Source: Bacteroidia bacterium (GTDB taxonomy: Bacteria > Bacteroidota > Bacteroidia > B-17B0 > Aurantibacillaceae). Taken from it: a stretch of 64,000 nt of DNA. Made by a program: the position numbers and the translations under genes. The stretch spans positions 1 through 64,000 of the forward strand of contig JACMNO010000070.1 in assembly GCA_014378485.1 (NCBI GenBank), in the 5' to 3' direction. Below, in pieces: positions 52,454 to 56,735 of this stretch (the first letter of the stretch is position 1; every line of letters starts with the position of its first letter). The notes beneath the pieces are model-generated. The model was given only the letters and a program-made list of their open reading frames with translations. It did no database searches and was not told where the DNA came from.

Positions 52454-53317
52454 ATGAGACAGTTAAAAATTACCAAATCCATTACAAACCGTGAAAGTGC
52501 ATCTTTAGATAAATACCTTCAGGAAATTGGTAGGGAAGAATTAATTACTGCAGAAGAAGAAGTTGTTTTAGCGAAGAAGATCAAGGATGGTGACCAGGAT
52601 GCTTTAGAAAAACTGACCCGTGCTAACTTACGTTTCGTGGTATCAGTAGCAAAACAATATCAAAACCAGGGATTAAGTTTACCCGATTTAATTAATGAAG
52701 GAAATTTAGGTTTAATCAAAGCGGCCCGCCGTTTTGATGAGACACGTGGTTTTAAATTTATTTCTTATGCTGTATGGTGGATTCGTCAATCTATTTTACA
52801 GGCATTAGCAGAACAATCTCGTATCGTACGTTTACCATTGAACCAGGTTGGTTCCTTAAATAAAATTAATAAAGCATACTCTAAATTAGAGCAGGAATTT
52901 GAACGTGAGCCCAGTGCTGATGAAATTGCTGAACTGTTAGATTTGCCTATTGATAAAGTTTCTGATACCATGAAAGTATCTGGCCGTCACGTAAGTATGG
53001 ATGCACCTTTCGCTAACGGTGAAGAAAGTTCTTTATTAGACGTTTTGGTAAATCATGATTCATTAAAAGCGGATGCCGGTTTAATCATGGAATCCTTATC
53101 AAAAGAAATTGATCGTGCTTTATCAACCTTAACTGAAAGAGAAAGAGACGTGGTTAAATTATTTTTTGGAATTGGTTTAAACCACGGTTTAACTTTAGAA
53201 GAAATCGGTGATAAATTTGATCTAACCCGTGAACGCGTTCGTCAGATTAAAGAAAAGGCAATCCGTCGTTTACGTCATAGTTCACGTAGCAAATTGTTAC
53301 AACAATACTTAGGATAA
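52454..53317 (+). CDS. rpoD: Primary sigma factor RpoD/SigA, short Bacteroidota form
   Basis: A 287-residue sigma-70 factor. Region 1.1 is absent and region 1.2 starts at once ([18 protein letters not shown]). Region 2 has [37 protein letters not shown] and the [13 protein letters not shown] recognition helix. Region 3 and region 4 follow, the latter with [20 protein letters not shown] for the -33 element. Bacteroidota sigma factors of this type read TTTG/TAnnTTTG promoters, and one such promoter stands before the gene itself. The terminator is a hairpin at 53341-53372. Confidence 0.96.
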
Positions 53318-53327
53318 TCTTTTTTGA

Positions 53328-53420
53328 TTATATCCAATTAAAGCAAGCATCTACGAGGTGTTTGCTTTTTTTATGCGATTCTGTTTTTCCGCAAAAATTC
53401 CTACCAAACTTTTTTAATAT
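53328..53420 (-). pseudogene. C-terminal remnant of a small basic secreted protein
   Basis: On the minus strand 30 codons follow a stop (53423-53421) with no ATG and end at TAA 53330-53328. The encoded peptide ends TESHKKSKHLVDACFNWI, nearly identical to the end of the intact protein at 55284-55754 (GSHKKNKHLVDVCFNWR). In the plus strand 42 of the first 46 bases match between the two copies. It is a duplicated gene tail kept in the rpoD terminator region. Confidence 0.65.
53341..53372 (+). terminator. Terminator of rpoD, overlapping a gene remnant on the other strand
   Basis: AGCAAGCATCT (53342-53352) pairs with AGGTGTTTGCT (53356-53366) with two G-T wobbles and a 3-nt loop, followed by seven T. 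A diverged copy of this hairpin, AACAAACATCT/AGGTGTTTGTT, lies inside the 3' end of the small-protein gene at 55284-55754. Confidence 0.7.
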
Positions 53421-53640
53421 TTACTAAACATTTGTTTGTGTAACTATGGTTGGACAAACTAGGATAAGCATTTTAAAATAACGGTATCGTTTTGCTTAAT
53501 ACATTCAGCGCTCTATAGGATATCCAAATCCTATTAAACCTTTTGTATATAAAAGAGAGTTATTAATTTATAGAATATTCAATCTGTCAGTTATGTAAAA
53601 ATCTATAAACCTTATGCAATTCAAATCATCTACTTCCAAA

Positions 53641-53677: not shown

Positions 53678-55171
53678 ATGAAAATGAAAAAATTAGTACT
53701 GATATGCGCTTGTTGTTTAACAACTCTTCTGGCCATGTCCCAAACGGAAGAGAAAAAATGGAACGTAGGATTTTATGGCGGTATCACCCAATACAACGGT
53801 GATAAAGGAATGAACTTTTACCAGACCAATCAACCTGCAACTTACGCATTTGCAAGTGTTTCTATTTCCCGTTATTTAAGCAAACATTTCGATGCCTCTA
53901 TTTTTTTTACAAGAGGTGAATTAGGAAATACCGAACCACGTTCACCATGGACTCAACCAAGTGATGAACCAATTCATTTTTTAGTTCGATTAAATACGTT
54001 TAATGCATTGTTACGTTATAATATACTTGCTCCTAAATGGGCAATTCGTCCTTACTTATATTTAGGTGCAGGCGGCATCATGCACGAAGCTATTCACTCT
54101 TTAGACAAAGAAAGATATGATTATGCACTGCCTTCTTTTGGTGGAGGTCTTAATTTCCGCTTAAACAGCGTGGTTTCTTTTCAGTTAGAAGAATCATTTA
54201 TGTACACAACCGCTGATGATATTGATGGCGATGTACACGGCCCTAATGATGGTTATTTATTCCATAAAGTTGGTTTAACTTTTAATTTAGGAAAACAAAA
54301 AGATACCGATGGTGATGGCGTTTCCGATAAAAAAGACCAATGCCAAAATACACCACCAGGTATCAGTGTAAATGCAGTAGGTTGTCCGCTTGATCGTGAT
54401 AATGATGCTATTGCTGATTATTTGGATGCCTGTCCTGATATTGCAGGAGTTGCATCTTTAAACGGTTGTCCTGATAAAGACATGGATGGCATAACTGATA
54501 AAGAAGATCGTTGTCCGGATGTTTTCGGGCCAGTTGAAACTAAAGGCTGCCCTGATGCTGATAAAGATGGCATTGTAGATATTGATGATAAATGTGCAGG
54601 AACAAAAACCGGTTATAAAGTAGATGCAACAGGTTGTACCCTTGATAATGATAAAGATGGTATTGTTAATGAAGAAGATGTTTGTCCTGAATTAGCAGGT
54701 ACATTAGCTTTCAAAGGTTGTCCTGATACTGATGGAGATGGCGTTTCTGATAAAGACGATCGTTGCCCTACTGTTAAAGGAACACTTGAAAACAAAGGTT
54801 GTCCCGAAATTGCTAAAGTTGATATTCAACGTATCACAGTGATTGCTGGTAAAATTTATTTTGAAACCGGTAGTGCTAAACTTAAGTTGATCTCTAATTC
54901 ATCTTTAGATGATCTTAGTGATATCCTTAAACGTAATGAAGTTGTTAATTTAACTATTGAAGGACACACTGATAATGTTGGTGATGATGCTTATAACATG
55001 ACCCTCTCTCAACAAAGAACAGAATCAGTTAAAGAATACTTAATTGCTAAAGGTATCTCAGCAGCACGCTTAACTGCTATTGGATATGGCGAAACTAAGC
55101 CGGTAGCTGATAATACAAAAGCTGCAGGTAAAGCAAAAAACAGAAGAGTTGAACTTAAAACTTCGTATTAA
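53678..55171 (+). CDS. OmpA-family outer-membrane protein with thrombospondin type 3 repeats
   Basis: A 497-residue protein with a signal peptide (about 1-22, ending LAMSQ). Residues about 25-207 form an eight-stranded OmpA-like barrel. Residues about 208-378 hold Asp-rich thrombospondin type 3 repeats (DTDGDGVSDKKDQC, DKDGIVDIDDKC, DTDGDGVSDKDDRC...) that bind calcium and form a rigid rod. The C-terminal OmpA domain (about 390-497) has IEGHTDNVGDDAYNMTLSQQ and RVEL, which grips peptidoglycan through DAP. The gene is flanked by two direct copies of a small-protein gene tail (53328-53420 and 55284-55370). Confidence 0.93.
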   Translation: MKMKKLVLICACCLTTLLAMSQTEEKKWNVGFYGGITQYNGDKGMNFYQTNQPATYAFASVSISRYLSKHFDASIFFTRGELGNTEPRSPWTQPSDEPIHFLVRLNTFNALLRYNILAPKWAIRPYLYLGAGGIMHEAIHSLDKERYDYALPSFGGGLNFRLNSVVSFQLEESFMYTTADDIDGDVHGPNDGYLFHKVGLTFNLGKQKDTDGDGVSDKKDQCQNTPPGISVNAVGCPLDRDNDAIADYLDACPDIAGVASLNGCPDKDMDGITDKEDRCPDVFGPVETKGCPDADKDGIVDIDDKCAGTKTGYKVDATGCTLDNDKDGIVNEEDVCPELAGTLAFKGCPDTDGDGVSDKDDRCPTVKGTLENKGCPEIAKVDIQRITVIAGKIYFETGSAKLKLISNSSLDDLSDILKRNEVVNLTIEGHTDNVGDDAYNMTLSQQRTESVKEYLIAKGISAARLTAIGYGETKPVADNTKAAGKAKNRRVELKTSY

Positions 55172-55193: not shown

Positions 55194-55232
55194 AATGGCG
55201 TGTTAAGATTTATCTTAACACGCCATTTTTTT
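55194..55232 (+). terminator. Strong terminator after the OmpA-family gene
   Basis: AATGGCGTGTTAAGA (55194-55208) pairs perfectly with TCTTAACACGCCATT (55213-55227) with a 4-nt loop, followed by a T run. Confidence 0.92.
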
Positions 55233-55283
55233 GAATTAGATCCTTTGGTTTAAATTAGTGTCATTTAGATTGGGCTTTTTAAA

Positions 55284-55733
55284 TTACCTCCAATTAAAAC
55301 AAACATCTACAAGGTGTTTGTTTTTTTTATGCGATCCCATTTTCTCAAAAACATGGCGTTCAAACTTTTTAAAGTTTTTAGTGAAAGTATGTCTATTTGA
55401 TCTTGAGTTGGAAGACCCAGTTGAGGATATTCGTAGGGACGTATTAAATGAAAAGTTAATACCATTTCCAATTCTGTTTTTCGAATCCTTGTTCTGCCTT
55501 ACATTATTATAGGACTGTTCCTGAATATCATTTTTATCAAAATTAATTTGCGTTGGCATTTCATTTCCTACATTATTATCGTTTTTAAAATAGGATGGTT
55601 TACTCATATTCGTTTGGGAAACCACCAAAGATGGGTTTATGTTACTCGTTAAAAAGAAATTTTCCATCTGTTGTTGCTGAGAGAATAATGCCGCCGTCAA
55701 TCCAATAAACGATGAAAACGAAATATAACGCAT
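55284..55733 (-). CDS. Small Ser/Asn-rich basic secreted protein
   Basis: From ATG 55733 the protein has 149 residues: a signal-like hydrophobic N-terminus (MRYISFSSFIGLTAALFSQ), a Ser/Asn/Gln-rich middle with no recognised fold, then a basic tail ending in HKKNKHLVDVCFNWR. An earlier in-frame ATG (55754) would add seven residues. The C-terminal peptide is the only part conserved in the remnant at 53328-53420, so it is probably the functional or selected part. It is convergent with ompA and lies beside a MITE-like element. Function unknown; reality as a gene rests on the duplicated, conserved tail and signal peptide. Confidence 0.5.
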   Translation of the reverse strand: MRYISFSSFIGLTAALFSQQQQMENFFLTSNINPSLVVSQTNMSKPSYFKNDNNVGNEMPTQINFDKNDIQEQSYNNVRQNKDSKNRIGNGINFSFNTSLRISSTGSSNSRSNRHTFTKNFKKFERHVFEKMGSHKKNKHLVDVCFNWR

Positions 55734-55783
55734 GAGAGGAATTACTTGAATCAAGTATCGTAAAACACATTCATTAAGTATTT

Positions 55784-56237: not shown

Positions 56238-56735
56238 TTATAATCTGTTTCCCAATTCAATCACCGCAAGATCTTTGATCTCTGTTTTATCAATTACGAA
56301 ACGTAATACAGTTTTAACCTGGTGAAATCCATGAATACCGCAAGCTCCCGGGTTCATATGCAAAACATCATATTGCTTCTGATACATCACTTTTAAAATA
56401 TGGGAATGTCCGCAAATAAATAATTTTGGTTTTTCCTCTAATAAAATTTCTTTTACCTCTTTTAAATAGTTAGTAGGCTGTCCACAAATGTGGGTAATAA
56501 ACACTTTTACTTCTTCACAGATGAAAATTAAATTTTTTTGAAATTCTTTCCTGGCATCAGCGTCATCAATATTGCCAAATACGGCGCGCAAAGGTTTTAG
56601 TTTTTTTATTTCATCCGCCACTACTAGGTTTCCAATATCACCGGCATGCCAAATCTCGTCCGCAGCCTCAATATGCTTAAGCAATGCCTTATCCAAATGG
56701 CTGTGAGTATCGGATATCAAAAGAATGTTTTTCAC
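56238..56735 (-). CDS. YfcE/MJ0936-family metallophosphoesterase
   Basis: A 165-residue calcineurin-like phosphodiesterase with all metal motifs: ISDTHSHLD, WHAGDIGN, FGNIDD, ITHICGQ and CGHSHILK. Family members hydrolyse phosphodiesters with Mn or similar ions; physiological substrates are unknown in most. Cytoplasmic, no signal. It lies downstream of the amidase gene but is separated from it by the palindromic terminator 56766-56797, so it is probably expressed on its own. The gap 55755-56237 downstream holds the MITE-like element and nothing else recognised. Confidence 0.88.
   Translation of the reverse strand: MKNILLISDTHSHLDKALLKHIEAADEIWHAGDIGNLVVADEIKKLKPLRAVFGNIDDADARKEFQKNLIFICEEVKVFITHICGQPTNYLKEVKEILLEEKPKLFICGHSHILKVMYQKQYDVLHMNPGACGIHGFHQVKTVLRFVIDKTEIKDLAVIELGNRL

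Follow-up and report, generated by a model that had tools for sequence, protein, structure and literature searches.

A predicted intrinsic terminator in the last codons of a gene facing rpoD, and its fossil behind rpoD, in a family of Bacteroidia

The window analysed here is a 64,000-nucleotide stretch of a Bacteroidia contig (JACMNO010000070.1), in which the sigma-70 gene rpoD occupies 52454..53317 on the plus strand, with Pfam sigma-70 regions 1.2, 2, 3 and 4 and 98.6-100% identity to genus-1 rpoD. On the same strand lies a gene for an OmpA-family protein with TSP3 repeats (53678..55171; Pfam OmpA and TSP_3), here called ompA, which is followed by a strong terminator of its own at 55195..55232, a perfect hairpin of -20 kcal/mol with T7. 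Several TSP3-type repeats are found in this protein at 54302-54767, with a spacing of mostly 81 nt. Beyond ompA, on the minus strand, is an intact frame of 156 codons (55284..55754; 149 amino acids from a likely ATG at 55733), the KKSKH gene, whose upstream neighbour is a gene for a YfcE-family phosphodiesterase (56238..56735, minus strand), also found upstream in G069 and G071 and nearby in G078. The same genome encodes another rpoD-like sigma factor (G000:C36:30258-31121), which shares 71% identity with that of the window, and most genomes of the family have two.

The product of the KKSKH gene has a signal-peptide-like N-terminus, a QQQQ run, an Asn/Ser-rich middle and a basic, conserved C-terminus. 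Besides this gene, the GTDB family contains 13 close homologs, and a further 6 more distant ones occur in its genera 6 and 8; nearly all homologs come from metagenome assemblies. The alignment has a middle of variable length, a conserved basic end, F.RNFYGKL.SHKKSKHLVDVCFNW, and the C-terminus KKSKHLVDVCFNW. No match to the small protein was found in Pfam, NCBIfam or PDB sequences. On the strength of this conservation, 55284-55754 on the minus strand represents a real, previously undescribed gene family with a predicted secreted product.

Two plus-strand hairpins, each a perfect 11-bp stem with a T7 or T8 tail, lie within a 104-nt direct repeat with ompA in between, the left (53319..53422) and right (55275..55378) copies of the repeat being 77% identical and 1956 nt apart. 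Hairpin 1 with its U7 tract spans 53340..53372 and starts ~23 nt past the rpoD stop codon; at 53342-53366 it reads AGCAAGCATCT-ACG-AGGTGTTTGCT, then 7 T at 53366-53372. Hairpin 2 with its U8 tract spans 55296..55328 and is formed from the minus-strand codons K-K-N-K-H-L-V-D-V-C-F; at 55298-55322 it reads AACAAACATCT-ACA-AGGTGTTTGTT, then 8 T at 55321-55328. Both tails are exactly as the original prediction described them, as are the minus-strand peptides KHLVDACFNW (copy 1) and KHLVDVCFNW (copy 2) and the change of one stem pair from G-C to A-T on both sides with pairing kept; a second differing pair, which is G.U in the first copy and A-U in the second, went unmentioned there. The span 55284-55330 originally assigned to this element takes in copy 2 and the stop codon of the minus-strand gene, and copy 1 lies outside it.

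Predicted folds of the plus-strand RNA reach -14.6 kcal/mol for copy 1 and -12.2 kcal/mol for copy 2 (z -5.6 and -4.9), which none of 200 dinucleotide shuffles of either copy matches, and the minus-strand RNA is weaker, at -6.7 and -8.6 kcal/mol respectively. A simple terminator scan flags both hairpins. Each copy combines a stable, G+C-closed predicted stem with a U-tract directly 3' of it and a same-strand stop codon shortly upstream; for hairpin 2 that stop codon is the one of ompA, ~125 nt away, and the hairpin stands behind another terminator. By position and predicted fold, hairpin 1, which is kept in relatives that lack the gene, is the putative end of the rpoD transcript.

The frame opposite hairpin 1 is in a different state from that opposite hairpin 2. 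It is a fossil of a KKSKH-gene 3' end, 30 codons long (53328..53420, minus strand; ...SHKKSKHLVDACFNWI*), which matches the family with E values of 2e-5 and 5e-14 and resembles the rpoD-facing ends of relatives. Judged from its sequence, it is now a noncoding remnant that lies outside any intact gene. In it Val has become Ala (GTT to GCT), a change that none of the intact close homologs has at that position and that leaves the stem paired, as G.U. The dual use of a gene end that had been proposed for both tails consequently applies to copy 2 and its relatives, where the hairpin lies within an opposite-strand gene recognized by its conservation and, in the comparison with synonymous versions given below, exceeds what the peptide requires, and not to copy 1, which is a fossil only.

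The order of genes in relatives suggests how the two copies arose. The KKSKH gene directly faces rpoD in the genus-1 genomes G069, G078 and G080, and also in G070 and G049, where the contigs stop nearby; this arrangement is found in genera 1 and 5, and in genus 3 (G011, G026 and G035) the gene directly faces that for 4-hydroxyphenylpyruvate dioxygenase (HPD). In G069 a yfcE-like phosphodiesterase gene lies just upstream of the KKSKH gene in the same direction, as in the window. The ancestral genus-1 order was likely htrA, rpoD, and then the KKSKH gene and yfcE on the opposite strand. In the window and in G074, ompA stands between rpoD and the KKSKH gene, with a copy of the gene's tail left behind rpoD. 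The copy-2 counterpart past ompA in G074 (L105, about 1920-1990 of the reversed locus) is a degenerate gene with a strong hairpin (-12.6) and an interrupted T-tract. In G071 (L106; G071:C89:1988-3770) rpoD, whose match ends at residue 261, and the facing KKSKH gene (...KSHRIYH) both lack their 3' ends, a junction that reflects either a deletion or an assembly fault.

Relatives were divided into those in which the gene faces rpoD or HPD, those in which an intact gene has been separated from them, and those in which the gene is lost, degraded or moved, and native folds were compared with peptide-preserving recodings drawn with the codon usage of the window. Where the gene faces rpoD or HPD, the hairpin is kept in 8 of 8 cases at -12.1 to -13.0 kcal/mol, a fold that 0.1-0.8% of synonymous versions match, and all eight use AGC for Ser and TGC for Cys, from which the lowest part of the stem takes its G-C pairs. 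Facing genes that share an amino acid also share its codon in 83.5% of pairs within the hairpin, versus 59.1% in the 18 codons upstream. Copy 2, which faces ompA and has AAC and TGT codons, folds at -10.2 kcal/mol in this comparison, matched by 2% of recodings. In the five separated genes (G015, G016, G034, G005 and G082) KKxxxxxDxCFxW is kept and the stable hairpin is gone from all five, with folds of -1.0 to -5.0 kcal/mol that 21-82% of synonymous versions equal; G015, G016 and G034 have a different terminator after HPD. A rank test of facing against separated genes gives p 0.0016 with relatedness ignored, a value that overstates independence because the separated class reflects some two or three independent losses, G005, G016 and G034 forming one clade in a weak tree. 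The G015 gene directly faces another small gene and yet lacks the hairpin, so a convergent neighbour by itself does not preserve it. In the third class, that of lost, degraded or moved genes, the hairpin persists behind rpoD (G000, which is the tail in the window, and G072, G074, G075, G076 and G079) or behind HPD (G005 and G012). The folds in this class run from -9.1 to -12.8 kcal/mol, a range to which the compensated hairpins of G076 and G079 come in addition.

These classes bear directly on whether the C-terminal peptide is conserved for the protein alone, with codons that are self-complementary by chance and no terminator. The back-translation of KKSKHLVDVCF is indeed partly palindromic, and the peptide is conserved in genes without a hairpin too. 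However, synonymous versions of facing genes seldom fold as well as the native ones, separated genes encode nearly the same peptide without the hairpin, and hairpin and U-tract outlast the gene, with compensatory and G.U-preserving substitutions. The comparison with recodings and the relatives that lack the gene largely refute such a reading, which we consider quite improbable.

The converse, in which selection acts on the hairpin alone and the minus-strand frame is either spurious or owes its form to the terminator, describes copy 1 and the other fossils behind rpoD or HPD well. As an account of the family it is very unlikely, because the frame is open for 145-275 codons in 14 genomes, with the conserved residues R..F.GK..HKK upstream of the hairpin, and because the peptide persists where the hairpin has been lost. 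The original prediction had posed the matter as a choice, in which either the peptide constrains the hairpin or the terminator constrains the peptide. That choice does not survive the comparison: peptide persists without hairpin and hairpin without gene, once rearrangement separates them, and the two are thus best described as independent constraints on one sequence, neither of which appears to drive the other. The structure is kept beyond what the peptide demands, as the synonymous comparison indicates here and in a second gene pair described below. A majority of gene-bearing homologs, 11 of 20 with the distant ones included, lack the hairpin, which is nominally the outcome that had been named as fatal to the proposal; the loss tracks lost adjacency or divergence of the peptide.

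The comparison of stem covariation with codon-level conservation in homologous tails, suggested with the original prediction, gave a corresponding division. In the set of facing genes and gene-less relatives, a count that pools coding and fossil rows, 98.7% of cells are paired and two pairs have changed on both sides, against 36-49% paired in an arm-sliding control; among separated genes 75% of cells are paired and none of the pairs is compensated. For instance, the hairpins behind rpoD in G076 and G079 carry a both-sides change from C-G to U-A. The G-C to A-U change in copy 2, on which the original argument leaned, is by itself weak evidence of selection for pairing. TGC probably became TGT first (G.U with AGC) and AGC then became AAC (A-U), never with an unpaired step; because of this G.U intermediate, because TGT is the preferred Cys codon, and because the copy stands behind the -20 kcal/mol terminator of ompA, little can be drawn from it.

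Imperfect pairs in the stems are G.U in plus-strand RNA and A.C in minus-strand RNA, which is why the plus-strand RNA folds better, and the difference bears on a further possibility, a role of the hairpin in the small gene's own (sense) mRNA, for 3'-end stability or translation control. The minus-strand RNA does fold, less well (-8.6 kcal/mol in copy 2). Against such a role, which carries only a very slight probability, the G.U pairs that have been kept are mismatches in the minus RNA (in the synonymous comparison the rpoD fossil folds at -12.6 kcal/mol on the plus strand vs -4.0 on the minus strand), the long U-tract is confined to the plus side, the hairpin remains where the gene has been lost, and intact genes separated from rpoD or HPD do without it. 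The functional RNA would on this evidence be the transcript running in the rpoD or HPD direction. Nor does the element have the U-tracts on both strands of a bidirectional terminator, since the sequence on its minus side is TTTAATTGG, as fits a gene that runs on through the hairpin to its stop codon. Behind HPD in G005, where the gene is gone (L133), T runs of 7-8 flank the fossil hairpin on either strand, with T8 on the minus side, and make it bidirectional-like. The view of the repeat as a hairpin-bearing mobile or uptake-type element (REP, MITE or DUS-like) is scarcely credible, even with two copies 1956 nt apart on either side of ompA, since a search of the own genome found these two copies alone rather than the many expected of a dispersed repeat, both lie at the end of one gene family, and an Rfam search of the region returned no family match.

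A second gene pair in the same genome appears to be an independent case. On contig C14, HPD faces priA (NCBIfam TIGR00595), and the end of priA, NNKKSIYRLQVDADPV, is written in codons that form the predicted HPD terminator AGCATCTACCTGCAAACGGTAGATGCT followed by T7 (L203:17110-17135, also in L182, L178 and L185; last priA codons KKSIYRLQVDADPV). In G000, G074 and G078 this hairpin folds at -12.3 to -14.9 kcal/mol, and 0.05-0.1% of synonymous versions are as good. The priA peptide of G080 is near-identical and has no hairpin (-1.9 kcal/mol; 50%); there the end of priA is at a distance of 81 nt, and HPD is followed by a different terminator. In a survey of 1.08 Mb of the 3.53-Mb own genome, taken as stretches and using a home-made gene caller and terminator finder, 4 of 242 convergent gene ends, versus none of 590 tandem ends, had an antisense terminator whose centre fell within the final 75 nt (Fisher p 0.007), a rough and threshold-dependent count that includes copy 2 itself and priA. 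The two remaining candidates in last codons of convergent genes are at C22:179074-179094 and C32:179180-179197. The dual use had been called rarely described, and it is indeed uncommon at this frequency; coding-embedded terminators are nonetheless a real arrangement of a known kind.

We therefore favour, as likely and with good confidence on comparative grounds, an intrinsic terminator that occupies roughly the final eleven codons of a convergent gene, with codons and structure selected independently. RNA polymerase running past the stop codon of rpoD, or of HPD in genus 3, would make the hairpin GCAAACATC..GGTGTTTGC and release at U7-U8, while the opposite strand of the same bases would encode the conserved end of the small secreted protein. 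On the coding strand, AAA AAA A(GC) would correspond to the U-tract, and G-C pairs drawn from Ser AGC and Cys TGC would close the stem at its base. A duplication or insertion around ompA would have left one gene tail behind rpoD, which lost its coding capacity and stayed in use as the rpoD terminator; the intact gene would now face ompA, which has its own terminator, so that its hairpin is second in line. Both termination in cells and the order of these rearrangements are inferred. Counting against this explanation are the hairpin that copy 2 keeps despite the terminator of ompA, the G015 gene with its convergent neighbour and no hairpin, and the small number of independent losses.

Terminators between facing genes, shared and bidirectional, are well documented (PMC1852404, PMC7566282). 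TransTermHP models the intrinsic terminators of tail-to-tail pairs with a search region that extends as far as 500 nt beyond the stop codon (PMC1852404), and the element described here resembles these in having a GC-closed hairpin and U-tract after the stop codon of the facing gene; unlike them, it lies inside the coding sequence of that gene, and comparative data indicate separate selection on codons and structure. It shares a single hairpin at a convergent junction with the bidirectional terminators reported in Zymomonas (PMC7566282) and by Ju, Li and Liu 2019, as cited in PMC10319736. It differs in being one-directional: with a U-tract on its minus side as well, transcription of the small gene would stop before the stop codon was reached. 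G005, with the gene lost, has T8 on that side too. In Neisseria, pairs of DNA uptake sequences act as terminators (PMC1852404), likewise a second role overlaid on terminator sequence between facing genes, although here there are two copies only and no dispersed genomic motif. Term-seq surveys, for instance in Borrelia (PMC10319736), recognize transcript ends that map antisense to an annotated gene as a class of their own, to which the ends predicted here would belong; codon-level and structure-level selection are compared here and apparently not in those surveys. No earlier description of codon-level dual use, or of a like test, was found in the open-access literature.

A broader, tentative suggestion, which we regard as possible and somewhat doubtful, is that the C-terminal segment of the KKSKH family is a portable terminator for any gene that it happens to face, be it rpoD (genera 1 and 5) or HPD (genus 3). 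Such a segment would shield the gene from antisense transcription and, once the gene had died, would persist as a fossil maintained by the neighbour; KKS-type ends (AAA AAA AGC) may be a recurring route to this arrangement, as in priA.

The comparative evidence for this predicted overlap of terminator and gene is unusually good, and it offers a comparative test for coding-embedded terminators, which tend to be missed by annotation. The locus amounts to a natural experiment on overlapping constraints, in which functions on opposite strands of one short sequence would each decay alone after separation. Furthermore, it points to one route by which terminators may arise and endure: the final codons of a neighbour stay on as a fossil when the neighbour itself is lost.
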